Source of the DNA: a virus
DNA: 64,000 nucleotides
IMG/VR virus record: IMGVR_UViG_3300043570_001783
Span: 1-64,000 of that record
Strand: one strand, 5' to 3'
Shown here: in pieces, positions 1,963 to 15,171 of the stretch
Numbering within the stretch: the first letter of the stretch is position 1
Layout: every line of letters starts with the position of its first letter
Made by a program: the position numbers and the translations under genes
Notes under the pieces: generated by a model
Database searches by the model: none
What the model was told of the DNA's origin: nothing
Seen by the model: the letters and a program-made list of their open reading frames with translations, nothing else

Positions 1963-1995
1963 AAAAAAAGGGGGTCACAAAAACCCTCTTTTTTT
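1963..1995 (+). terminator. Rho-independent terminator
   Basis: A-run plus GGGGG pairs with CCCTC plus T-run around a nine-base loop (one G-U pair), followed by Ts. It lies just after the beta-helix gene and before the polymerase promoter. Confidence 0.8.
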
Positions 1996-1997
1996 AT

Positions 1998-2026
1998 TTG
2001 ACAAAAAACAAATTTACTAATATACT
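1998..2026 (+). promoter_or_regulatory. Promoter of the DNA polymerase gene (TTGACA-N17-TATACT)
   Basis: TTGACA at 1998-2003, a 17-base spacer, then TATACT at 2021-2026, 60 bases before the polymerase ATG. The -35 also reads TTTG, the Bacteroidota -33 element. No TATTTATA element is present here, suggesting early or middle expression by host polymerase. Confidence 0.55.
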
Positions 2027-2086
2027 TATTGATGTAAGGTAAATGTCGTTTTTAACGGCAGCTAATGAACCATTAAAATAAGTGAT

Positions 2087-4897
2087 ATGATAAACGAAGA
2101 AGAAATTAAGTCGTTCTTAGAAGGGAATGACCCTGAAGAACACATCGTGGCCATAGAATTTGATTATGTATCAGATTCAGTCTATAAAATAAAAGAAGAG
2201 CCAGGGAAAGGAAAAACAATCCAAAAAGATACATTTACCGCGTTTGCTTGGGTGGGAGATTTACGTGGTTTAAATTTCTACCAATCATCTAAGGCACTTC
2301 AAAAAGAAGGAATGTCTAAGCATGGAATTATGATTGAGAAATTACGAACAAGCCATGATGACGGAGTTGTTAATGACCGTTTAGAGTTTGGTTTAAAATA
2401 TATGGTTAAATCATTAAAAGGTTATCGTTCATTAATTCAATTCTTCCGTGATGGTGGACTCGACCCTTGGGGAGAAATAACTAAAGGTAAGGTTCTTATC
2501 TTACCTCCTGTAGAACAATACCTCATCTCAAGAGAAAAAAGATTATTCAAAGGTTTTGATGAGTACAATGACATCACGAGACTTGTATTTGACCTTGAGA
2601 CGACCGCTTTGGAACCTAAAGACGGTCGTATATTCATGATTGGGATTAAAACAAATAAAGGTCTACAACGAGTAATTGAGTGTTCTAATGAAGATGAAGA
2701 ACGTAGAGGTCTTGTAGAATTCTTTAGAATTATTGATGAGGTTAAACCAACTATTATTGGTGGTTACAATTCCGCAAACTTCGACTGGGTTTGGATATTC
2801 GAAAGATGTAAAATGTTGAATTTAGACATTAAAAAGATATGCCGTACCCTAAACCCTAAATCTAATATAAAACAGTCTGAGAACTTATTAAAACTAGCTA
2901 ATGAGGTGGAGAGATACAACCAAGTTGGTATGTGGGGTTATAACATTGTAGATATTATTCACTCTGTTCGTCGAGCTCAAGCTATTAACTCAAGTATTAA
3001 GTCCGCAGGTTTGAAATACATCACCAAATATATTGATGGTGAGGCTAAAGACCGTGTATACATTGACCACTTAGATATTGGACCATTCTATGCAAAAAAA
3101 GAAGAATATTGGTTAAACATTGAGAACGGTAACTACAAAAAAGTTGGGTTAGACTCAAAGATTGATTCCGTTTGTGAGAAACACGATAAAGTGTACATTA
3201 AAACAACAGGTGATGATTTAGTTGAGCGTTATCTTGACGATGACCTTGAGGAAACGTTATTGGTGGATGATGAATTCAACCAAGGAACGTTTCTATTAGC
3301 GTCCTTAGTACCAACTACTTATGAACGTATTTCAACAATGGGCACCGCAACATTATGGAAAATGATTATGTTGGCTTGGTCTTATAAACACAAATTAGCA
3401 ATTCCTGAGAAACAAGATAAAGGAGCATTTGTTGGTGGTTTATCAAGACTATTAAAAACAGGTTATTCAAAAGATGTACTAAAACTTGATTACTCTTCAC
3501 TATACCCCTCTATTCAGTTAGTTCACGATGTGTTTCCTGAGTGTGACGTTATGGGGGCGATGAAAGGGATGTTAGCCTATTTCCGTAACTCTCGTATTAT
3601 GTACAAGAACTTGGCGAAAGAATGGGAAAGTAAGGATAAAAAGACTTCCCTTAAATTTGACCGTAAACAATTACCGATTAAGATTTTCATCAACTCATTA
3701 TTTGGGGCTTTATCCGCACCACAAGTATTTGCTTGGGGTGATATGAACAAAGGTGAACAGATTACTTGTACAGGTCGACAATATTTACGTCAGATGTTAA
3801 GATTCTTCATGAACCGTGATTACACTCCACTAGTATGTGATACCGATGGTATGAACTTCTCATTACCTGAAGGTGGTGTTGATGATAGAAGATATGTTGG
3901 TAAAGGTCTTAATTGGTTAGTTAAAGAGGGTAAAGAATATACAGGTTATGATGCCGATGTTGCCGAGTTTAACGATTTGTTTATGAGAGGTGCGATGGGT
4001 CTTGATTGTGACGGTACATGGAAATCTTGTATCAACTTAGCGAGAAAGAACTACGCAACTATGGAACATAAAGGGAAAGTTAAATTAACAGGTAATACTA
4101 TTAAATCTAAAAAATTACCCTTGTATATTGAAAAGTTCTTGGATAAAGGTGTTAACTATTTGTTAGAGGGACAAGGTAAAGAATTTGTTGAGTGGTATTA
4201 CGAATACATCTCAATAATCTTTAATCTAAATATCCCATTGATGCAAATCGCTCAAAGAGCCAAAGTCAAATTGTCTATTAAAGACTACATGACAAGAACC
4301 ACTCAAAAAACAAAATCGGGTGGTGCAATGTCAAGAATGGCACATATGGAATTGGTTATGAAGGATAAGTTAAATGTTAATTTAGGTGACGTAATCTTTT
4401 ATGTTAATAATGGAACTAAAGCGTCTCAGGGTGATGTTCAGAAAGTAACTAAACTGAAAAGGGGATGGTCTCAAGACCAATTAGATTATCATTTTGAATC
4501 TTATGGGAAACACCCTGACGAATCGGTAACATCCATGATTCAAATTAATAGTTATAGATTGGACCCAAAGGTTATCGAAGAAAACCCTGATATGAAAGGT
4601 GAGTATAATGTACCAAGAGCAATTGCAACATTCAATAAACGAATCGAACCTTTATTAATTGTTTTTAAAGATGAGGTTAGAGATAATTTATTAGTTACTG
4701 ACCCTGAAGATAGAGGGTTCTTTACAACTGACCAATGTGAATTAATTAACGGGATTCCATTTAGACCTGAAGACCAAGATACTATTGAGGACTTGTTAAC
4801 AGTAACAGACCAAGAGTTAGAGTTTTGGAATAAAGTGGGGATTGACCCAAATTATATTTATGATTTGGCGAGTGAAGGGTATGAAGTATTCTTATAA
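2087..4897 (+). CDS. 43: Family B DNA polymerase (T4 gp43-like)
   Basis: 936 residues, close to T4 gp43 (about 900). Replicates phage DNA with 3'-5' proofreading. Exonuclease motif I is the Asp169-x-Glu171 of LVFDLETTALEP; exo II is in the segment IIGGYNSANFDW. Polymerase motif A is DYSSLYPS with Asp468, motif B is KIFINSLFGALSA near residue 536, and motif C is CDTDGM with Asp585 and Asp587; all expected catalytic acids are present. The start ATG follows an A/T leader without Shine-Dalgarno. It has its own sigma-type promoter and a terminator after the stop, so it is a monocistronic unit away from the other replication genes at 32-40 kb. Confidence 0.97.
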   Translation: MINEEEIKSFLEGNDPEEHIVAIEFDYVSDSVYKIKEEPGKGKTIQKDTFTAFAWVGDLRGLNFYQSSKALQKEGMSKHGIMIEKLRTSHDDGVVNDRLEFGLKYMVKSLKGYRSLIQFFRDGGLDPWGEITKGKVLILPPVEQYLISREKRLFKGFDEYNDITRLVFDLETTALEPKDGRIFMIGIKTNKGLQRVIECSNEDEERRGLVEFFRIIDEVKPTIIGGYNSANFDWVWIFERCKMLNLDIKKICRTLNPKSNIKQSENLLKLANEVERYNQVGMWGYNIVDIIHSVRRAQAINSSIKSAGLKYITKYIDGEAKDRVYIDHLDIGPFYAKKEEYWLNIENGNYKKVGLDSKIDSVCEKHDKVYIKTTGDDLVERYLDDDLEETLLVDDEFNQGTFLLASLVPTTYERISTMGTATLWKMIMLAWSYKHKLAIPEKQDKGAFVGGLSRLLKTGYSKDVLKLDYSSLYPSIQLVHDVFPECDVMGAMKGMLAYFRNSRIMYKNLAKEWESKDKKTSLKFDRKQLPIKIFINSLFGALSAPQVFAWGDMNKGEQITCTGRQYLRQMLRFFMNRDYTPLVCDTDGMNFSLPEGGVDDRRYVGKGLNWLVKEGKEYTGYDADVAEFNDLFMRGAMGLDCDGTWKSCINLARKNYATMEHKGKVKLTGNTIKSKKLPLYIEKFLDKGVNYLLEGQGKEFVEWYYEYISIIFNLNIPLMQIAQRAKVKLSIKDYMTRTTQKTKSGGAMSRMAHMELVMKDKLNVNLGDVIFYVNNGTKASQGDVQKVTKLKRGWSQDQLDYHFESYGKHPDESVTSMIQINSYRLDPKVIEENPDMKGEYNVPRAIATFNKRIEPLLIVFKDEVRDNLLVTDPEDRGFFTTDQCELINGIPFRPEDQDTIEDLLTVTDQELEFWNKVGIDPNYIYDLASEGYEVFL

Positions 4898-5278: not shown

Positions 5279-6403
5279 TTAAATTACGTATATTTGTCTC
5301 GGCATTGCTCGGTACTTCAATTGTTTATTTAAATTTTCAGCTAGTAGTGCCTCACGTTCCATTACTTTATCAGGTTTTAATCTTGTTAGTCGTCCTTCAG
5401 CTCCCGTTAATTCATCAATTAATTTTGTTTTTTCATCTTTAGCTTCGGTAGCCAAAGATTGGTAGTCCATTGTTAATTCTGAATCAGGTGTTTTTAAATT
5501 ACCACTATATTTCCCACGAACTTTAGATAACGTTTCTTTACAGGAAGCAACAAACCAACGTCTTACCCAAACTTGAGCAGGATTATTCAATTCGGTCCAA
5601 GACATTTTATTGAATGGTACGTCCGATGGTAATTTAATAATGTCAGGATTATCAGCTAAACATTTATCTCTACCACCTTGTGATGTATCATAATAGTGAT
5701 ACCAAACTTTACCTCTCATCAAATTAGCATTACCAAAATCAAATTTACCACCAGGAGTGTTCATTAAATTTAAAGATTTTTTACCGCCTGGTAATGCCGT
5801 AATTGTATATGTTAAATCACCACCAATAATTCTTCTTTGTATATTGATTTCTTGCATTCTTAATAACATATCAAAAGCGGGAGCCATAAGGTAAGAACCT
5901 GACATACCCATTTGTGCTAAACCACCCGCACCACCAAGACCACCACCAGCACCAAGTGCTCCGAAAGACCAAGGGTCAAACATTGTATTATTTAATTCTG
6001 ACGGTGTAAACCACAACAATTCATTAATCTCTCTGTCCGCAGGTACTTCATAACTTTGTTGATTGTCTTTTAACTGAATATAATCTTTTTTAAGTTCCCA
6101 ATCACCTCCCGCTTGTAACCCAACTATTTTGGAGTATGCGTAAGTATAACGATTTTCAAAATCTAAACTTTTAGAAATGAACGCTCTTGATAATGATTGT
6201 GTGTCAAGATTAAGATTGTATAAAGAAGGCCATTGTGACTCGATTAAAAAATTTTGTACTTGTTCGGAATAGTCATCAATTGAAAATTCCAATAATGTGT
6301 CCATCTGTTCATCATCTAATTCGACTGAACGAACAGGTGCTCCCAATATATGTCTTATTTTCTTATATAGGGAACTTCTTTCTGGTTCGGGGATTACTGA
6401 CAT
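5279..6403 (-). CDS. 13: Neck protein, T4 gp13-like
   Basis: 374 residues. The N-terminus (residues ~10-55) has the pattern of T4-type gp13 neck proteins: a start LYKKIRHILGAPV followed by DDEQMDTLLEFSIDDYSE. The C-terminal third (QVWVRRWFVASCKETLSK, then a G-Y/K-SGNL segment and a charged helix DEKTKLIDELTGAEGRL) also fits that family, where the tail of the protein packs at the head-tail connector. A Gly/Ala/Met-rich loop around residues 150-170 is an unusual insertion. Gp13 completes the head and allows tail joining. A TATTTATA element lies on the minus strand just upstream (6418-6425). Assigned from remembered family patterns, so moderate confidence. Confidence 0.65.
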   Translation of the reverse strand: MSVIPEPERSSLYKKIRHILGAPVRSVELDDEQMDTLLEFSIDDYSEQVQNFLIESQWPSLYNLNLDTQSLSRAFISKSLDFENRYTYAYSKIVGLQAGGDWELKKDYIQLKDNQQSYEVPADREINELLWFTPSELNNTMFDPWSFGALGAGGGLGGAGGLAQMGMSGSYLMAPAFDMLLRMQEINIQRRIIGGDLTYTITALPGGKKSLNLMNTPGGKFDFGNANLMRGKVWYHYYDTSQGGRDKCLADNPDIIKLPSDVPFNKMSWTELNNPAQVWVRRWFVASCKETLSKVRGKYSGNLKTPDSELTMDYQSLATEAKDEKTKLIDELTGAEGRLTRLKPDKVMEREALLAENLNKQLKYRAMPRQIYVI

Positions 6404-6417
6404 AATTATATTTTATA

Positions 6418-6425
6418 TATAAATA
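6418..6425 (-). promoter_or_regulatory. TATTTATA late-promoter candidate
   Basis: Reads TATTTATA on the minus strand, 14 bases before the ATG of the gp13-like gene. Confidence 0.5.
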
Positions 6426-6455
6426 TTTAGCTTATGTTGTATTTTACTTCTAAGA

Positions 6456-7985
6456 CTAATAAATATGTTTAATAAGATTAATTTCAGGTATTAAATAATT
6501 ACCTTTAACTATCTTAATACCGTTATTATCAAATATCATAGCGTCTTTATTATTTTTAGAAAAAATTAACCAATCCGTTTTATACGGATTAACTTGACCA
6601 GTATCTAACATTTTATAAAACCCATCAACTAAATCATAGGACTTATATGGTTTAATTTGTGCGGTTTTAATTTCATCACCAATTTTAACTTCACAGTCAA
6701 TACCGTCAATCGCATCAACAGTATTACCAAGTTCACCAATTTTTTCAACATTTTTATCACCGTATTCTTTTTTAAGAATCTCAACAACTTTTATCTCAGT
6801 TAATTCGCCAAGTGAGTTAGTACTACCAAGTGTGACCATAATATTTTCAAAAGTCCCTGATGATAATGAAAAAATCCTTGTTTTAAATTCATTAGCTACA
6901 CTAATTAATCTTTTCGCTTCATTAATTTGTTCACCTACGGATTTATTTTTAAAAGTAATTTTAGGTTTACCCAATTTTTCCATAACGATATTAATGTCGT
7001 TTAATAAAACACAAAAGACTTCATAATTTGTATTCATTTTATTTATCACCGACCTACCTTTTTGTTCAAAATCATATATTCCTAACATTTGATTTGGTCC
7101 ATAAGCGTCTTTTTCATAATAATTATCGGGAAAAACTTCACTTAAAATTTTCTCAACACCGTATCTGTAAATATTCTTCACAAACTTATTGGTGTTAAAT
7201 AAATTTCGATATAATTGAACTTCACCTCGACTACATCTTTCAGACACACCTTCATTAATAATTCGTTTCAATTTAAAATTTTCGTTAATAGTTGTTTTAG
7301 TTTTCATTTTAAGTAATTCATTAACAAATTCCCAATTAACACATTTCCAAAAATTATGGATGTATTCATCTCTCTTGTTACGATACTTTAAATAATAAGA
7401 ATGTTCCCACAAATCTAAACCAAGTAATGGATAACCACCATTTCGAATAACATTCATTAATGGGTTATCTTGATTTGGTGTTGAGATTATTTTTAAAGTG
7501 TTACGTTTAGTTAAGACTAACCAAACCCATCCTGAACCAAATCTATTTTTAGCAACCTCCTCAAATTTATTTTTAAATTCTTTTAAACTACCAAATGAAC
7601 TATTAATTTTCCTTAAAATTGGTCCACTACATTCTTGTTCTTTTGGGGATAACATTTTCCAAAACAACGCGTGGTTAAAAGCACCACCCGCATTATTTCG
7701 TATTGTTTTGTTGTACTTACCAATACGTTTAATTATCTCCTCAAGTTCAACATCACCATAATCTTTCTTAGATAATGCGTCGTTTAATTTTTTAACATAT
7801 CCTTTATAATGTTTGTTGTAGTGAAAATCCATTGTTTCCGAATCAATGAAATTTTTCAAGGCAGAGTAAGAATATGGTAATTTTTCTATACCGATTTTTT
7901 TAGCTTCACTAAGTAAAGTTCGTTTGGCGTCTTCTTTTTTAATATTTTCAGTCAGTACTTTGACTTTATCTTCTAATGTTTTCAT
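6456..7985 (-). CDS. Mn-type superoxide dismutase fused to a PD-(D/E)XK nuclease-like domain
   Basis: 509 residues, more than twice the ~200 of a dismutase. Residues ~30-225 are an Fe/Mn superoxide dismutase: all four metal ligands are visible (His55 in DFHYNKHY, His105 in GGAFNHALFW, Asp191 and His195 in DLWEHSYYLKY). Gly101 together with Gln172 in NQDNPLM is the manganese-type arrangement. From residue 228 a second module starts with MKTKTTINENF, looking like a former start of a separate gene. Residues ~390-500 suggest a PD-(D/E)XK nuclease fold: helix with Glu396, then Asp430, then Gln443-x-Lys445. The N-terminus ends a short leader with L-T-E. It has its own TATTTATA element. The dismutase call is firm; the nuclease call and any joint function are inference. 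Confidence 0.85.
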   Translation of the reverse strand: MKTLEDKVKVLTENIKKEDAKRTLLSEAKKIGIEKLPYSYSALKNFIDSETMDFHYNKHYKGYVKKLNDALSKKDYGDVELEEIIKRIGKYNKTIRNNAGGAFNHALFWKMLSPKEQECSGPILRKINSSFGSLKEFKNKFEEVAKNRFGSGWVWLVLTKRNTLKIISTPNQDNPLMNVIRNGGYPLLGLDLWEHSYYLKYRNKRDEYIHNFWKCVNWEFVNELLKMKTKTTINENFKLKRIINEGVSERCSRGEVQLYRNLFNTNKFVKNIYRYGVEKILSEVFPDNYYEKDAYGPNQMLGIYDFEQKGRSVINKMNTNYEVFCVLLNDINIVMEKLGKPKITFKNKSVGEQINEAKRLISVANEFKTRIFSLSSGTFENIMVTLGSTNSLGELTEIKVVEILKKEYGDKNVEKIGELGNTVDAIDGIDCEVKIGDEIKTAQIKPYKSYDLVDGFYKMLDTGQVNPYKTDWLIFSKNNKDAMIFDNNGIKIVKGNYLIPEINLIKHIY

Positions 7986-8001: not shown

Positions 8002-8009
8002 TATAAATA
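8002..8009 (-). promoter_or_regulatory. TATTTATA late-promoter candidate
   Basis: Reads TATTTATA on the minus strand, 16 bases before the ATG of the dismutase fusion gene. Confidence 0.5.
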
Positions 8010-8027: not shown

Positions 8028-9797
8028 TCACTTAATGAGTATACGATTCATTATTTCTTGAACAATATCACCACGGTCTATGTTATCACCCATAACAGTG
8101 TCGATAATATTCTTCTTATTTGATAAAATATCGTATATAGCACCTTCGATAGAGTTTTCAAATATTGGGTAATAAATGGACACTGAATTTTTTTGACCGA
8201 ACCTGTATGCTCTATCTTCAGCCTGTTGGTGGTCCGATGGAACAAATGATAAGTCATTCATTATACAAGCCTCACCAGCGGTGAGAGTAATACCGACACC
8301 CGCAGCTTTTAAATTCCCCACAAACACTTTAATTTTATTGTTCTCTTGGAATTGGTCAACCGCATGTTGGCGATGAGGTTTACTACAAGAACCATCTAAA
8401 TAAACGGCATCTTTCCCAAAATGTTGATATATTTTTTGTAATGTGTCGGTAAAATTTGTGAAGATGATTACTTTTTTATCTTGGTCAATAATATTTTGTG
8501 CTAACTCTATAGTTGTATTTATTTTTTCTTCAGCAATTATTTGTCTAACCTTCATCAACTTACTAAATTGTATTGTTAATGATGAAGATTCTTCTTTTTT
8601 ATTTTCATACCAATTGTAATACTCCCCCATCATGGCTTCGTACTCTTTTGATTTAAGTTTTAGGTAAACAGGTGTAATAATTTTATCAGGTAAATCTAAT
8701 ACATCAGTTTTTAATCGTCTCAAAACTTGTCTTGATGTTCTATCTCTCAATTCTTCCAAATTAGATGCCCCTGAAACATTCCAAACTTTTCTTTTACCTG
8801 CGTTAAATTGATACCCTTGACAATATCTAATAGCGTAAGCCATCCAATTTTGAGCCACAGGACTTTCAATTAAATTTAACAAATTAAAGTAATTCATTGG
8901 TCTTGAAGTCATTGGTGTTCCCGTCAACAACCAAAGATATTTTGTTTTTAGTACAAAATGATTAACCAATTTAGTTCTTTGGGCTTGTCCATTTTGGATA
9001 TAATGAGCCTCATCAATAATAATCAACTCAGGATTTAATTGAGTGATTAACGAATCTGTCTTACCTTTTAATTCGTGAAAGTTTTTTAGAATATCATAGT
9101 TAACAATTACAAAGTCGTGTTCCAATGAGAATTTTTTATTCTCGGCAATGAAAATACTTCTGTCAGTATAGTTCTCAATCTCCCTCATCCAGTTTATTTT
9201 CAAAGACGCAGGACAAATTATTAAAATCTTTTTAACCCCCGTTTCTAACGCAGCAATAATTGTACTTGTGGTTTTACCAAGTCCCATATCATCAGCCAAA
9301 ATAAAACGTCTCGTACCAACTAATTTCTCAATCGCCTCTTTTTGATGTTCTAATGGTGGTCTATTACTGTACTTAGAATAATCAATTATCACTTTTTCAG
9401 TTGTATGTGTTTTAATCAACGCACCCTTAGGCATCCAAAAGTCGTGTAATGTTTCACCCGAAAATACTTTACCCCAAATATGGTAAGCCTTATCTTTCTC
9501 AACTAATAATTTCTCAACCCAAATTTCTTTAGGTACAGTTGTATACAATTTTTCATCAGAAATTTTCTTAGCAAAATAGGGGTCGATTTCGACCCATTTC
9601 TTAGCAACTTTTGGTGTTACTTCTGAGTATGATATTACGTAATCTGATTGTGAACGTGTAGGAACAAAATTCTTATTGGTTAAGAATTTTTGTTTTAAAT
9701 TAATTAAAAAATTGTTAGCACCATTATATTCTTCCAATATATTAAGAGCTTTCCTTTCAATTACTTCAAAATTAAGTTTTATTTCGTTATTTTCCAA
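8028..9797 (-). CDS. SNF2-family DNA helicase/translocase
   Basis: 589 residues. Two RecA-like lobes follow an N-terminal ~140-residue region. Motif I is ADDMGLGKTT (Lys175), motif II is DEAH at 262-265, motif III LLTGTPM near 291-296, motif V GVGITLTAG, and motif VI QAEDRAYRFGQ. The DEAH box, the SNF2-style QAEDRAYRFGQ and the arrangement resemble SMARCAL1-like annealing or fork-remodelling enzymes. Such proteins in T4-like phages probably act in recombination-dependent replication, in a role comparable to UvsW. The protein is complete, with all motifs intact. It is divergent from the gene at 9847, with promoters for both in the short gap. Confidence 0.92.
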   Translation of the reverse strand: MENNEIKLNFEVIERKALNILEEYNGANNFLINLKQKFLTNKNFVPTRSQSDYVISYSEVTPKVAKKWVEIDPYFAKKISDEKLYTTVPKEIWVEKLLVEKDKAYHIWGKVFSGETLHDFWMPKGALIKTHTTEKVIIDYSKYSNRPPLEHQKEAIEKLVGTRRFILADDMGLGKTTSTIIAALETGVKKILIICPASLKINWMREIENYTDRSIFIAENKKFSLEHDFVIVNYDILKNFHELKGKTDSLITQLNPELIIIDEAHYIQNGQAQRTKLVNHFVLKTKYLWLLTGTPMTSRPMNYFNLLNLIESPVAQNWMAYAIRYCQGYQFNAGKRKVWNVSGASNLEELRDRTSRQVLRRLKTDVLDLPDKIITPVYLKLKSKEYEAMMGEYYNWYENKKEESSSLTIQFSKLMKVRQIIAEEKINTTIELAQNIIDQDKKVIIFTNFTDTLQKIYQHFGKDAVYLDGSCSKPHRQHAVDQFQENNKIKVFVGNLKAAGVGITLTAGEACIMNDLSFVPSDHQQAEDRAYRFGQKNSVSIYYPIFENSIEGAIYDILSNKKNIIDTVMGDNIDRGDIVQEIMNRILIK

Positions 9798-10517: not shown

Positions 10518-11555
10518 ATGGCGTTACCTAAAAAAATAAAGAAACATATCCCATTAACGGATGAGAAAGTTGGGTATCCGAGAAGAGAGGAGTTACTTGA
10601 AAAAATTAATAGAGACGGTACTTACCTTCCTAAATCAATACTTCATGCCGATTTGGATGGTGGTATGATAGAATTTGTTAAAACAGATTTGAAAACTATT
10701 GTTTCAGGTAAAATAATCCCCATGATTGATATTTTAATAACCACACAAAATTGGGCTCAGTTTGCCCAAACTTGGGATATTCAAAATATCGACAAAAACG
10801 TAGAACCCCCATTTATCACAATTGTTAGAGTTCCTGAAGTTAAATACGGGACAAACCCGTCAACTGTTTATACAATACCAAACCGAAAACATTTTTTTTA
10901 CGCTCAAGTACCTACTTGGGATGGACAAAGAAATGGTCTGGACATTTATAAAATACCACAACCTGTTCCTGTAGATATAACATTCCAAGTTAAGATTGTT
11001 TGTAATAGAATGAGGGAATTAAATAAATTTAATCAAATTGTTTTAGAGAAATTTTCATCAAGACAAGCTTATACCAATATAAAAGGTCATTACATTCCAA
11101 TAATAATGAATGGTATTACTGACGAGTCGGTTAATGATATCGAAAAAAGAAAGTATTATGTTCAAAGTTATGAATTCACAATGTTAGGGTTTTTAATTGA
11201 TGAAGATGAGTTTGAGGTGTCACCTGGTATATCGAGGGTATTACAAGTATTAGAGATATCGACTAATAAAAGTAAAAAAGCTAAACACGAAAATACAAAC
11301 CCTGATAGTTTATCAACTAACGCATTATTTGTTGTTGGTAATAATATATTAACTGAATTATTTAATTATAGAGTGGATATTAATATCGGTAATCTTTCAA
11401 ATATAGACTCATTTGATGTTTATATTAATGATGATTATTACGGTAGTGATTTATCTGTAATACAAATAAACACAGGTGATAGATTACGAATTGAAGTTGT
11501 TAAATACGACGATACTAAGGAAGGTATTATTGAGTTAAATAGTACACTACTTTAA
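10518..11555 (+). CDS. Putative tail completion/sheath stabiliser, gp15-like
   Basis: 345 residues. Central region (about 140-245) has the pattern QPVPVDITFQVKIVCNRM, then a helix with KFNQIVLEKFSSRQ, then strands ending in YEFTMLGFLID, which resembles gp15-type tail terminator proteins of T4-like phages. The ~100 C-terminal residues form an extra beta-rich part (SFDVYINDDYYG, INTGDRLRIEV) that may be an Ig-like add-on. It directly follows the zinc-ribbon gene with no gap and precedes the sheath gene, as gp15 does in T4 order. Terminator gp15 caps the tail and stabilises the sheath. Recognition is by pattern only, so moderate. Confidence 0.55.
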   Translation: MALPKKIKKHIPLTDEKVGYPRREELLEKINRDGTYLPKSILHADLDGGMIEFVKTDLKTIVSGKIIPMIDILITTQNWAQFAQTWDIQNIDKNVEPPFITIVRVPEVKYGTNPSTVYTIPNRKHFFYAQVPTWDGQRNGLDIYKIPQPVPVDITFQVKIVCNRMRELNKFNQIVLEKFSSRQAYTNIKGHYIPIIMNGITDESVNDIEKRKYYVQSYEFTMLGFLIDEDEFEVSPGISRVLQVLEISTNKSKKAKHENTNPDSLSTNALFVVGNNILTELFNYRVDINIGNLSNIDSFDVYINDDYYGSDLSVIQINTGDRLRIEVVKYDDTKEGIIELNSTLL

Positions 11556-11716
11556 TTCTCCCCATAGATATCTTTAGAATCTTTACACTTATCCATTATT
11601 AACTTTTCAAGAAACCTGTAAATTTTAATACCACGTTTCTCACAATACTTCTTTAGGACATCGTGTGCCTCTTTCGAAATCTTTAAATTTTTTATCTCTT
11701 TCCCTTCATTTTCCAT
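11552..11716 (-). CDS. Small ribbon-helix-helix-like regulator, 54 residues
   Basis: Minus-strand gene in the gap before the sheath gene; its stop overlaps the end of the gp15-like gene by four bases. The translation MENEGKEIKNLKISKEAHDV continues with a helix-turn-helix pair (LKKYCEKRGI, then KIYRFLEKLIMDKC). One short beta strand (KNLKIS) followed by two helices is the ribbon-helix-helix layout of small DNA-binding repressors. A 12-base palindrome and a minus-strand TATTTATA element lie just upstream, as expected of an autoregulated repressor. The gene is short, but composition and context support it. Targets unknown. Confidence 0.7.
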   Translation of the reverse strand: MENEGKEIKNLKISKEAHDVLKKYCEKRGIKIYRFLEKLIMDKCKDSKDIYGEN

Positions 11717-11730
11717 AGTAGAAAAAAGGC

Positions 11731-11742
11731 AGAATATATTCT
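11731..11742. promoter_or_regulatory. Perfect 12-base palindrome, operator candidate
   Basis: AGAATATATTCT, fully self-complementary, lies between the minus-strand TATTTATA element (11751-11758) and the start of the ribbon-helix-helix-like gene. The half site AGAATAT occurs again at 11793 within the sheath promoter. Confidence 0.45.
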
Positions 11743-11750
11743 ACCTAATT

Positions 11751-11758
11751 TATAAATA
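11751..11758 (-). promoter_or_regulatory. TATTTATA late-promoter candidate
   Basis: Reads TATTTATA on the minus strand, 34 bases before the ATG of the ribbon-helix-helix-like gene. Confidence 0.5.
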
Positions 11759-11765
11759 CTTCCTA

Positions 11766-11790
11766 CAAAGTAAAGCACTTTGGTTTTTTT
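11766..11790 (+). terminator. Terminator-like hairpin before the sheath gene
   Basis: CAAAGT, loop AAAGC, ACTTTG, then G and seven Ts. A short six-base-pair stem with a clear T run; it would end plus-strand transcripts from the gp15-like unit. Confidence 0.55.
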
Positions 11791-11795
11791 CAGAA

Positions 11796-11803
11796 TATTT
11801 ATC
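11796..11803 (+). promoter_or_regulatory. TATTTATC late-promoter candidate (sheath)
   Basis: GAATATTTATCAAT context, 38 bases before the sheath ATG, immediately after the terminator hairpin. Confidence 0.5.
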
Positions 11804-11841
11804 AATAAAATAAATTAAACAAATAAAAAAACCAAAAAATA

Positions 11842-14800
11842 ATGGCGACAAACAGTAAAGTATTCGTATCACCTGGGGTTTACACATCCGAGGTCGATTT
11901 GAGTTTTGTAGCTCAAAGTGTTGGTGTTACTACATTAGGTATCGTAGGTGAAACTTTAAAAGGTCCAGCTTTCGAACCTATTTTTATCACTAACTTTGAT
12001 GAGTTTACATCTTACTTTGGGGGAACATCTCCTGAAAAATTTGTGAATACACAAATCCCTAAGTATGAAGCGTCTTACATTGCGAAATCTTATTTACAAC
12101 AATCTAATCAATTGTTCGTTACTAGAATATTAGGATTATCGGGGTACGACGCGGGACCTTCATGGTCTATAACAACCAAAGCAAACGTTGATAAAACAAC
12201 AGTTGATTTCTTTTGTGAAAGTGCAACAACAGTTGATTGTGTTACAGAATGTGTCGATTTCAAAACGATTGATTTTGCAATTGATTTCTCAGGATGTAAT
12301 AATAGTATTGACGGTATCACGTTCTTAGACCCAACACAATTTCCTGATGAAATTGCATCTAAACTTAATTTACCGTATGAAAATTTTGATAATAGTATTT
12401 CAACATTAAATACTGATATTAAACTACAAATTTTTAATATATTAAATGAACCAACAACAGAATTAAGTTCAATTAATTATTATGGTACTATACCTCATTC
12501 TGACTATGTTACTTTATCAGCATTCACTGGTTCAACTAACGTATTTGATGTTGACGGTATTGATTCGTTAAGTGCGGTTTACACGGCACCTCAAAATGAT
12601 TCTTGGTACTACGCATTATTTGATAATATCGGTAGTGGGTCTTATACAGGTTATTCTTTTTGGTCATTTGTTACAACTTTATCATTAATACCTGTTACAA
12701 CTACAACAACAATAATTAATCCAACAACAACTACAACAACAACAAATCCATGTGTTACACCTGTTCCAACAACAACTACAACTACTACAACCGCAAAACC
12801 TGTTCATTGTTATACAGGTACTTTAGTGGGTAGAGTTTATGTTTACTCAGGAACTGCGTACACTGATTACGATGATTTAGTTATCGCAACAATGCGTTCA
12901 AGAGGTTTAGCAACTTATGGTAGTGACAATGGTGCGGTTTATGAAGTATCAGGTTTAACAGATGTTGGTATGGTATGTACAGGTGGTTATTCAGGTGTTA
13001 CTAAAAACCCATTCTCAACGTTTGGTTTAAATGTTACTAAAGCGGACGGAACTAATTTATTCTTCGAGACTTCATTATCTACTTCAGATTCAAAATACAT
13101 TAGTAAAGTTTTTGGTAAATCGAATTTTGGTAAAGACAGAGAATCTATTCCATTATTTGTTGAGGAGTCATACGCAACTTTATTAATTAACGCATATAGA
13201 AAAGGTTATGTTAGAGGTTTAAGTTGTGAATTAAACGCATTAGATTCCGCAAGAAGTGAAAGTAATAGTTCAATCGGTTTCTATTTAGAGAAATACCAAT
13301 CACCAGTATCCCCATGGGTTGTTTCTGAGTTGAGAGGTTCTAAAGTATTTGACTTATTTAAATTTGTTACAATTTCTGATGGTGAAGACGCTAATACAGA
13401 AGTAAAAATTTCTATCTCGAATATCTCATTTAACAACGGAACATTTGACGTATTAGTTAGAGATTTCTTCGATACTGATAATAACCCTGTAGTTATTGAG
13501 AAATTCACTAACTGTAATATGAACCCAAATGATAACAATTACATTGGTAAAAAAGTTGGAACATCTGATGGTGAATACCAATTGAATTCAAAATATTTAA
13601 TGATTGAACTTAATGAAGACGCACCGATTGACGCATTACCATGTGGATTCAAAGGATTCACAACAAGAGAATACGCTGGAAGTCGTTCACCATTCCCATT
13701 AATTAAATCTAAATACGATTTTCCAGGTGAAGTTGTTTTTGACCCACCATTTGGTTTATCAACAGGTGCGAACGCAGTTTCAAGAAGTTCTGGTGACAAT
13801 ATTAGAAGAACTTACTTAGGTATCTCAGATACTGTTGGTATTGACACAGATTTCTACCAATATAAAGGTAAACAAATACCAAGCACATCAGTATGTGATG
13901 CGGTTACAGGTCCTGAATGGTCTTATAGAACTAAAGGATTCCATATGGATAAAAACGCTATCGTTATAACAATACCAAACGCGTTTTCAACAAGTGGTAC
14001 TCCTGAATTCGTTTGTGGTGATGCAGAATTTAGTTCAGACCCTGACGATGAAAATAACCCATACTACAGATTATATGCTAGAAAATTCTCTTTCTTAGTT
14101 AGTGGAGGGTTTGACGGATGGGATATCTATAGAGAATATAGAACAAACTCTGACAGATATGTGTTAGGTAGAACAGGTTACTTAAAAGGTTCTTGTCCAA
14201 CATTAAAATATCCTACGGCAACAGGTTGGGGTGCATTTAAACAAATTACTGTTGGTCAAAACAGAGTTGATTACGCAAATACTGACTACTACGCTTACTT
14301 ATTAGGGATTCAAACATTCTCTAATCCTGAAGCGGTTAACATCAACGTATTTGTAACACCTGGTATTGATTATGTAAATAACTCAGACTTGGTTGGAAGT
14401 GCAGTCGAAATGATTGAGTTTGATAGAGCGGATTCTGTTTATATTACAACAACACCTGATTATAACTTGTTTACACCATCATTAGGTGACCCAATTGATA
14501 TGATTTTACCACAAGAGGCGGTAGATAATTTAGAAACTGCGGGAGTTGACTCTAACTACACGGCTACTTATTACCCATGGATTTTAGTAAGAGATACTGT
14601 TAATAATACACAAATCTACTTACCACCAACAGGTGAAGTAACTAAAAACTTAGCGTTAACCGATAACGTAGCGTTCCCTTGGTTCGCGGCTGCGGGTTAC
14701 ACAAGAGGTATAGTTAGTGCTATCAAAGCACGTAAGAAACTGACTCAAGAAGATAGAGACGTTCTTTACAAAGGAAGAATTAACCCAATCGCAACCTTCT

Positions 14801-15171
14801 CAGATGTTGGTACGGTAATTTGGGGTAATAAAACTCTTCAAATTAAAGAGTCAGCGCTTGACAGAATAAACGTAAGAAGATTGTTATTACAAGCTCGTAA
14901 ATTGATTTCAGCGGTTTCGGTGAGATTGTTATTCGAACAAAACGATGATAAAGTAAGACAAGATTTCTTAAATGCGGTGAATCCAATATTGGACGCTATC
15001 CGAAGAGATAGAGGTTTATACGATTTCCGTGTAACAGTTTCTTCAGACACTGCGGATTTAGATAGAAACCAAATGACAGGTAAAATCTACATTAAACCAA
15101 CTAAGTCGTTAGAATTTATAGATATAACATTCTATATTACACCGACGGGAGCATCGTTTGAGAATATTTAA
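11842..15171 (+). CDS. 18: Tail sheath protein with inserted domain (gp18-like)
   Basis: 1109 residues against ~660 in T4 gp18. The N-terminus (VFVSPGVYTSEVDLSF, TTLGIVGETLKGPAFEP) and C-terminus (residues ~900-1109: ARKLISAVSVRLLFEQND, GLYDFRVTVSSDTADLDRN, then IKPTKSLEFIDITFYITP) are the typical sheath ends that form the inter-subunit mesh. Between them is a large insertion. Residues 286-317 carry three runs of five to eight Thr separated by Asn/Pro/Cys segments, followed by a separate small domain beginning HCYTGTLVGRVYVYSG (about 322-420). The extra parts would lie on the outside of the contracting sheath. Own TATTTATC element upstream and hairpin downstream. Confidence 0.95.
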   Translation: MATNSKVFVSPGVYTSEVDLSFVAQSVGVTTLGIVGETLKGPAFEPIFITNFDEFTSYFGGTSPEKFVNTQIPKYEASYIAKSYLQQSNQLFVTRILGLSGYDAGPSWSITTKANVDKTTVDFFCESATTVDCVTECVDFKTIDFAIDFSGCNNSIDGITFLDPTQFPDEIASKLNLPYENFDNSISTLNTDIKLQIFNILNEPTTELSSINYYGTIPHSDYVTLSAFTGSTNVFDVDGIDSLSAVYTAPQNDSWYYALFDNIGSGSYTGYSFWSFVTTLSLIPVTTTTTIINPTTTTTTTNPCVTPVPTTTTTTTTAKPVHCYTGTLVGRVYVYSGTAYTDYDDLVIATMRSRGLATYGSDNGAVYEVSGLTDVGMVCTGGYSGVTKNPFSTFGLNVTKADGTNLFFETSLSTSDSKYISKVFGKSNFGKDRESIPLFVEESYATLLINAYRKGYVRGLSCELNALDSARSESNSSIGFYLEKYQSPVSPWVVSELRGSKVFDLFKFVTISDGEDANTEVKISISNISFNNGTFDVLVRDFFDTDNNPVVIEKFTNCNMNPNDNNYIGKKVGTSDGEYQLNSKYLMIELNEDAPIDALPCGFKGFTTREYAGSRSPFPLIKSKYDFPGEVVFDPPFGLSTGANAVSRSSGDNIRRTYLGISDTVGIDTDFYQYKGKQIPSTSVCDAVTGPEWSYRTKGFHMDKNAIVITIPNAFSTSGTPEFVCGDAEFSSDPDDENNPYYRLYARKFSFLVSGGFDGWDIYREYRTNSDRYVLGRTGYLKGSCPTLKYPTATGWGAFKQITVGQNRVDYANTDYYAYLLGIQTFSNPEAVNINVFVTPGIDYVNNSDLVGSAVEMIEFDRADSVYITTTPDYNLFTPSLGDPIDMILPQEAVDNLETAGVDSNYTATYYPWILVRDTVNNTQIYLPPTGEVTKNLALTDNVAFPWFAAAGYTRGIVSAIKARKKLTQEDRDVLYKGRINPIATFSDVGTVIWGNKTLQIKESALDRINVRRLLLQARKLISAVSVRLLFEQNDDKVRQDFLNAVNPILDAIRRDRGLYDFRVTVSSDTADLDRNQMTGKIYIKPTKSLEFIDITFYITPTGASFENI
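12697..12792 (+). repeat. ACA/ACT triplet repeats encoding poly-Thr in the sheath
   Basis: Three runs of Thr codons, almost all ACA or ACT, encoding residues 286-290, 295-301 and 310-317 of the sheath. The triplet structure would allow in-frame length change by slippage. Confidence 0.85.

Follow-up and report, generated by a model that had tools for sequence, protein, structure and literature searches.

We have found that a single gene in a family of T4-like phages encodes, as judged from its sequence, an antioxidant enzyme together with a predicted DNA-cutting domain. The gene was studied in a 64,000-nucleotide stretch of viral DNA, referred to as the window, and its product comprises a short leader, an iron/manganese superoxide dismutase (SOD), a linker and a nuclease-like module. 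Comparison of the family's sequences establishes the fusion, the retention of active-site residues and the conservation of (L/I)-x-E sites at the module boundaries. We hypothesize that the protein is a late, head-targeted polyprotein that is cut by the prohead protease gp21 into SOD and nuclease, both of which would be ejected with the DNA, and we hold this to be moderately probable. Late expression, packaging, cleavage and ejection, as well as both enzymatic activities, are what we infer rather than observe. The ORF and its two modules are as follows.

6456..7985, minus strand: SOD-nuclease ORF, 509 amino acids plus stop, with an ATG start and without an internal stop
7281..7904, minus strand: Fe/Mn superoxide dismutase module, residues 28-235 (Pfam matches 34-223), recognized by Pfam, PDB sequence match and fold
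6459..7250, minus strand: predicted nuclease module, residues 246-509, recognized by its predicted model, fold match and conserved catalytic set
6459..6821, minus strand: PD-(D/E)xK core of that module, residues 389-509, with Glu397, Asp430, Gln443 and Lys445, recognized by fold match and conservation

A preliminary description of this DNA, made from the letters alone, had proposed a full SOD and a second module in one uninterrupted frame, and the open frame of 509 residues with its Pfam SOD domains bears this out. PF00081 (E = 1.5e-23, residues 34-113) and PF02777 (E = 4.5e-39, residues 121-223) were both matched above the curated Pfam cut-offs. The four metal ligands that it named, His55, His105, Asp191 and His195, are all present and are invariant in 31/31 representatives (<95% identity) and in 71/71 distinct complete fused proteins, and Gly101 and Gln172 occupy positions that would be typical of Mn-type enzymes. 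The best PDB sequence match of the module was 6gsc (E = 4.9e-58), and its predicted fold was closest to that of 2a03 (Z 22.4, rmsd 2.4, 190 residues aligned). The whole protein missed the NCBIfam equivalog cut-offs for SodA and SodB (193.2/363 and 173.9/348 bits, respectively), a result that bears on these named equivalogs and not on the SOD superfamily. The module would be expected to have SOD activity.

The second module is predicted to have a PD-(D/E)xK nuclease fold. A model of residues 236-509, built on an alignment of the 31 representatives, had a pLDDT of 84.6, and the top solved match of its last 120 residues was the archaeal Holliday-junction resolvase Hjc 2wcw (Z 8.5, rmsd 3.3, 100 residues aligned), although, by the caution attached to the fold comparison, a Z value of about 8 may reflect a common arrangement. 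NhoI, DpnI and I-Ssp6803I were matched as well, resolvases and restriction enzymes made up most of the best 50 rows, and the best Foldseek E value was just 0.045 (2ost). The matches nevertheless agree with one another, and the catalytic residues provide independent evidence. That set had been anticipated as Glu396, Asp430 and Gln443-x-Lys445; the last three residues stand, whereas residue 396 is Thr and the invariant acid is Glu397. Glu397, Asp430, Gln443 and Lys445 are invariant in 71/71 distinct complete fused proteins and are kept in 10/10 copies of a nuclease alignment whose first sequence is a distant paralogue, to which the others are 19-30% identical. The module would be expected to have nuclease activity.

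By sequence, the module had no convincing match to a named family in Pfam (best E 0.044 and 0.069), PHROGs (a regulator at 0.048), NCBIfam (BT1927_fam at 0.039) or PDB sequences (best E 0.34). When 31 members were compared with Pfam, one matched PF20290 MC4 (E = 2e-4), one PF18381 (0.0016) and two PF20247 DUF6602 (best 0.033). Neither Hjc nor another nuclease family was found by sequence in Pfam, NCBIfam or PDB sequences, and the likeness to Hjc lies in the fold alone. The phage collection held no match to the module or to its paralogue, and one scan of genome contigs found no relative. Matches in a structure library include A0A6J5L953, a deposited 501-aa 'superoxide dismutase' of an uncultured phage that matches the nuclease module, and A0A8D9CCA0, a protein of 1113 aa from an uncultured marine phage that may be a larger polyprotein.

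The fusion recurs widely in the loci that were compared. SOD and nuclease are fused in one frame in 132/163 loci, the window's own record (L085) among them, and the nuclease stands alone in the other 31; a locus was counted as fused when it contained an SOD match and a nuclease ORF of >450 aa. By hand count, 26 of the 163 are repeats of an already counted contig, all of them fused, leaving 137 separate records with 106 fused and the same 31 nuclease-only forms. These proportions describe only the loci analyzed, since they were drawn from the best 80 of 183 relatives in a whole-protein scan of viral contigs and the best 80 of at least 458 in a nuclease-profile scan. In the first-scan set, which includes a few repeated contigs and the window's own record, 85/85 loci have an uninterrupted fused frame of 508-525 aa, and both ends are present in 131/132 fused loci overall (508-534 aa). 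An assembly or annotation artefact was rejected because one frame and the same gene order recur across 132/163 loci.

Removing identical sequences left 71 complete fused proteins and 17 stand-alone nucleases of 277-309 aa. In 15/17 of the latter, a fused-like leader of at least 30 residues is joined to the last linker site; in the two others (L125 and L133), 14 residues precede that site. Two stand-alone forms (L136 and L137) keep a short remnant of the SOD start. A tree was constructed from 53 nuclease modules, namely 36 fused rows of <93% identity and all 17 distinct stand-alone forms. On this tree, which is rooted at its midpoint and includes several long branches, stand-alone forms nest among fused ones. 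Three changes between the two forms are required, and the well-supported branches demand the same number. Three separate losses of the SOD are the simplest reading; one gain and two losses may also fit the change count alone, although the nesting and the SOD remnant in L136 and L137 point to loss rather than gain.

These comparisons also bear on how the joint arose. The preliminary description had suggested checking relatives for conserved acids and for separate copies of the halves, and in them the acids are kept and 31/163 loci encode the nuclease alone. Its view of Met227 as an old start codon is unsupported, since Met occupies this position in 55/71 fused proteins and none of the stand-alone nucleases begins there. 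Its alternative, in which two proteins were joined by the loss of an intervening stop, finds no support within the family, where the nuclease-only forms carry a full or shortened leader and lie among fused forms, a rejection that leans on a tree with a midpoint root only. A lost stop or an old start at Met227 was thus discarded on the stand-alone leaders, the tree nesting and the variation at residue 227.

The segments that flank the two modules are of particular interest.

7905..7985, minus strand: N-terminal leader, residues 1-27, ending in Leu25-Ser26-Glu27; a possible capsid-targeting propeptide, delimited by conservation
7251..7304, minus strand: linker, residues 228-245, with two putative prohead-protease sites, delimited by alignment and low model confidence
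7281..7283, minus strand: Glu235, putative site Ile-Asn-Glu-then-Asn (Glu in 71/71)
7251..7253, minus strand: Glu245, putative site Ile-Asn-Glu-then-Gly (Glu in 71/71; Leu/Ile at 243 in 71/71)

According to PMC9026906, the T4 prohead protease gp21 cuts after L/I-X-E, and N-terminal propeptides of 10-19 residues are the targeting sequences of T4 internal proteins. In our family, Glu27, Glu235 and Glu245 are each invariant in 71/71 distinct fused proteins, all three lie at module boundaries, and Leu or Ile precedes them at -2 in 71, 64 and 71 of the 71, respectively. The N-terminal segment thereby ends in the L/I-x-E pattern of a T4-type internal head protein in 71/71 sequences. Residues between the sites vary in the alignment, and residues 231-248 are the sole segment (at least three residues) with pLDDT <50 in a model of residues 28-509 that is itself of moderate quality (mean pLDDT 79.2, pTM 0.52). 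The last linker site keeps (L/I)-x-E in 17/17 distinct stand-alone nucleases.

The motif carries little weight by itself, being short and occurring in neighbors, and its strength lies in its place at each module boundary. Among 30 representatives, nine Glu columns reach a conservation of at least 95%, and L/I/M is found at -2 in four of them: Glu27, Glu235 and Glu245 in the leader and linker, and Glu194 in the SOD active-site stretch, or 1/6 elsewhere. In six neighboring proteins, 12/76 comparably conserved Glu residues carry L/I/M at -2, and one of these, residue 6 of the neck-like protein, is close to an N-terminus. The pattern was spotted first and counted afterwards. Several details count against a head polyprotein: residue 233 is Met in six and Val in one of the 71 proteins, and the 27-residue leader exceeds the 10-19 residues of T4. 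Conservation is lacking at residue 13, a possible inner site of the leader (Glu in 54/71). Residue 28 is Met in 63/71 fused proteins, so that an internal start could alternatively account for the conserved surroundings of Glu27-Met28.

The (L/I)-x-E sites at the joint, which the preliminary description had not mentioned, suggest that the two modules are separated there by cleavage during maturation and are not linked for good. Were the chain to stay joined, as a bifunctional enzyme whose SOD shields the nuclease or the DNA on which it acts, the keeping of one frame in 132/163 loci would be readily understood, but the nuclease-only forms in 31/163 loci, the cut-site pattern and the low-confidence linker in the model speak against such an arrangement, which we find very improbable.

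A rarer form of the protein (L199) extends the pattern. Over 882 aa it comprises a leader, an SOD and two nuclease copies, with tandem sites before the first nuclease (LME-S, IKE-E) and again before the second (LTE-S, LLE-G). It represents one distinct case, since the identical protein is found on five contigs in all, and L199 and L203 are one contig. A distant paralogue of the nuclease (E = 3.6e-12 to the nuclease profile) adjoins gp21 or gp22 in 13/13 loci, in the order gp21, paralogue, gp22; each of these loci shows one or both head genes, they are 81-100% alike, and the source record L189 was left out. In L181, the PD-(D/E)xK-like paralogue at 6105-7061, between the prohead protease and scaffold genes, starts with MKITISEG and so has its own I-S-E near the N-terminus. 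The same locus has two ORFs with signal-peptide-like N-termini adjoining the capsid gene (10700-12216 and 12250-14559), one of which resembles subtilisin-type proteases below curated cut-offs; their look gives the impression of a Bacteroidota host.

The gp21 family (PF03420) was matched in 5/11 records searched, including all four of >300 kb; three of the five (G001, G002 and G008) carry the fused gene and two (G003 and G004) lack the SOD. The Gp23 capsid protein was matched in 6/11. The window's own 67-kb record had no gp21 match and no gp23 match, and the prohead protease is therefore known from relatives only. When five head regions were compared, each of three head proteins showed a motif at the aligned place in 5/5 related genomes, these putative sites being LINE-A in the capsid protein, L-x-E-Q in the scaffold and [IL]-x-E-[AS] in a third head-cluster protein.

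The surroundings of the gene bear on when it would be expressed.

8002..8009, minus strand: TATTTATA, a late-promoter-like element common to tail, baseplate and neck genes, upstream of the SOD-nuclease ORF
8028..9797, minus strand: uvsW-like helicase gene, upstream in gene order in 163/163 loci
5279..6403, minus strand: neck-like (head-tail adaptor) gene (phrog_211, E = 3.9e-10), downstream in 159/163 loci, the 159 being those with a listed match

According to the preliminary description, the gene has its promoter element in common with virion genes, and TATTTATA indeed also stands upstream of tail, baseplate and neck genes. It lies within 80 nt upstream, on the sense strand, of 9/36 window ORFs and occurs 14 times in the window on both strands together. 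We take TATAAATA, the reverse complement of TATTTATA, to be the T4 late consensus, and TATTTATA is a candidate late promoter of this phage group. In the 90 nt upstream of the family gene, TATTTAT is found in 57/71 fused and 13/17 stand-alone cases (shuffled mean 4.2/88) and the full TATTTATA in 46/71 and just 2/17 (shuffled mean 1.7/88), counts that are not independent because the genes are related. The gene itself adjoins uvsW, neck and polB genes outside the head cluster, which counts against a head polyprotein. In L080, a 530-aa ORF (1967-3559) with an N-terminus similar to that of certain ORFs close to the capsid gene is inserted between uvsW and the SOD-nuclease gene. The window also encodes a 1109-aa tail sheath (11842-15171), with Thr-rich stretches around an apparent inserted domain and its best-scoring stretch to the top sheath family at residues 819-1107, and a 639-aa ORF (26-1945) that matched nothing in Pfam (E up to 1) or in PHROGs.

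This setting has to be weighed against the view that the phage carries the SOD as a host-support (auxiliary metabolic) gene acting against oxidative stress in the infected cell, its fusion to a nuclease being incidental. Such a role has been proposed for defense genes against reactive oxygen species, SODs included, in freshwater phages (PMC6802176), and the retention of all metal ligands agrees with it. The element common to virion genes and the adjoining neck and tail genes do not, nor do the apparent SOD losses that leave the remaining protein in place; moreover, nothing else in the SOD-lacking relatives G003 and G004, each >300 kb, matches PF02777, the C-terminal family of Fe/Mn SODs. We consider this role improbable.

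The strongest rival to a head polyprotein is an Hjc-like cytoplasmic resolvase. T4 gp49 debranches DNA before packaging, and the nuclease could be the Holliday-junction resolvase that does so late in infection, with the SOD an attached accessory, the protein unpackaged and the linker merely flexible. The archaeal Hjc resolvases that head the solved fold matches are in keeping with this, as are the presence of the nuclease in 5/5 long relatives and the constant order of uvsW and nuclease in 163/163 loci. In six records, no Endonuclease_7 match above the cut-off (one of the six has one below) and no RuvC match (0/6) was found, negatives that cover those two families in possibly fragmentary records. 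A resolvase of this kind leaves unexplained the invariant Glu of (L/I)-x-E at each boundary, the repetition of sites before the second nuclease of L199 and the retention of the last site where the SOD is missing. We regard it as unlikely, though deserving of weight, and both readings could hold if the resolvase were carried in the head.

We therefore return to the head polyprotein, which is favored by the boundary sites, the linker at low confidence, gp21 and gp23 in relatives and the L199 repeats, and also by the last site kept in nuclease-only forms, the paralogue beside gp21 and gp22 and the promoter element. The protein would be made late in infection and taken into the prohead core by its leader (residues 1-27). 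A gp21-type prohead protease would then cut after Glu27, Glu235 and Glu245, discarding the leader and linker peptide and freeing the SOD (approximately 28-235) and the Holliday-resolvase-like PD-(D/E)xK nuclease (246-509) inside the head. Both would be ejected with the DNA, like T4 internal proteins; the SOD might curb damage by superoxide as infection begins, and the nuclease might have host DNA, rival DNA or branched DNA as its substrate. It counts against this scheme that a nuclease inside a DNA-filled head would have to be kept inactive. The packaged enzyme imagined in the preliminary description is plausible. As a tentative extension, which we think quite possible, SOD and nuclease would be loaded as one chain, separated by the capsid protease and both injected, and the (L/I)-x-E linker would serve to join cargo, so that modules such as the SOD or a second nuclease could be added or dropped. 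If true, a capsid protease would release enzymes from a cargo polyprotein in addition to maturing the shell, a phage head would contain a natural antioxidant cargo, at least some of the 'auxiliary metabolic genes' that encode SODs in phages would be recast as virion enzymes, and a sequence signature would be available for finding further head cargo.

There are precedents for SODs in phages, for internal head proteins and for gp21 processing. Among the titles and abstract starts listed by the searches of open-licence PMC papers, none concerned a fusion of SOD and nuclease or the packaging of an SOD by a phage. In the phage collection, 28 records had an SOD match and 0 covered 80% of the fused protein; in the three inspected (MW462191, Vibrio phage 2.275 and PA5oct), the SOD is a short separate gene. 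The SOD-like protein of Pseudomonas phage PA5oct (L207 2510-3058; MK797984.1 172979-173527) is annotated as hypothetical with the record note 'ESI-MS/MS', and is possibly a detected phage SOD, the sample being unstated in that note. Compared with SodA and SodB, the family protein has both Pfam domains, the metal ligands and the fold in common, but its SOD is embedded in a longer protein with leader and nuclease and scores below the NCBIfam equivalog cut-offs. The nuclease shares its predicted fold with archaeal Hjc and PD-(D/E)xK nucleases, and its order of Glu ... Asp-x12-Gln-x-Lys is presumably also that of Hjc; it differs in having Gln in place of the second acid, an extra helical N-terminal part (246-388) and no convincing match to any named sequence family. 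We know of no SOD among the head proteins cut by gp21 relatives in the giant phages phiKZ and SPN3US, whose cleaved head proteins differ from the SOD-nuclease protein in identity. They are likewise cut after a Glu-ending motif by gp21 relatives (PMC9026906). The closest parallel is with the internal head proteins of T4 (IPI-III and Alt), which have a gp21-cut targeting sequence: the N-terminal segment ends in L/I-x-E in both, and gp21 and gp23 homologues are present, here in long relatives. In our family, by contrast, the cargo would be an SOD and a nuclease behind a 27-residue leader, with packaging putative, and the predicted cuts lie not only at the N-terminus but also between two folded modules.
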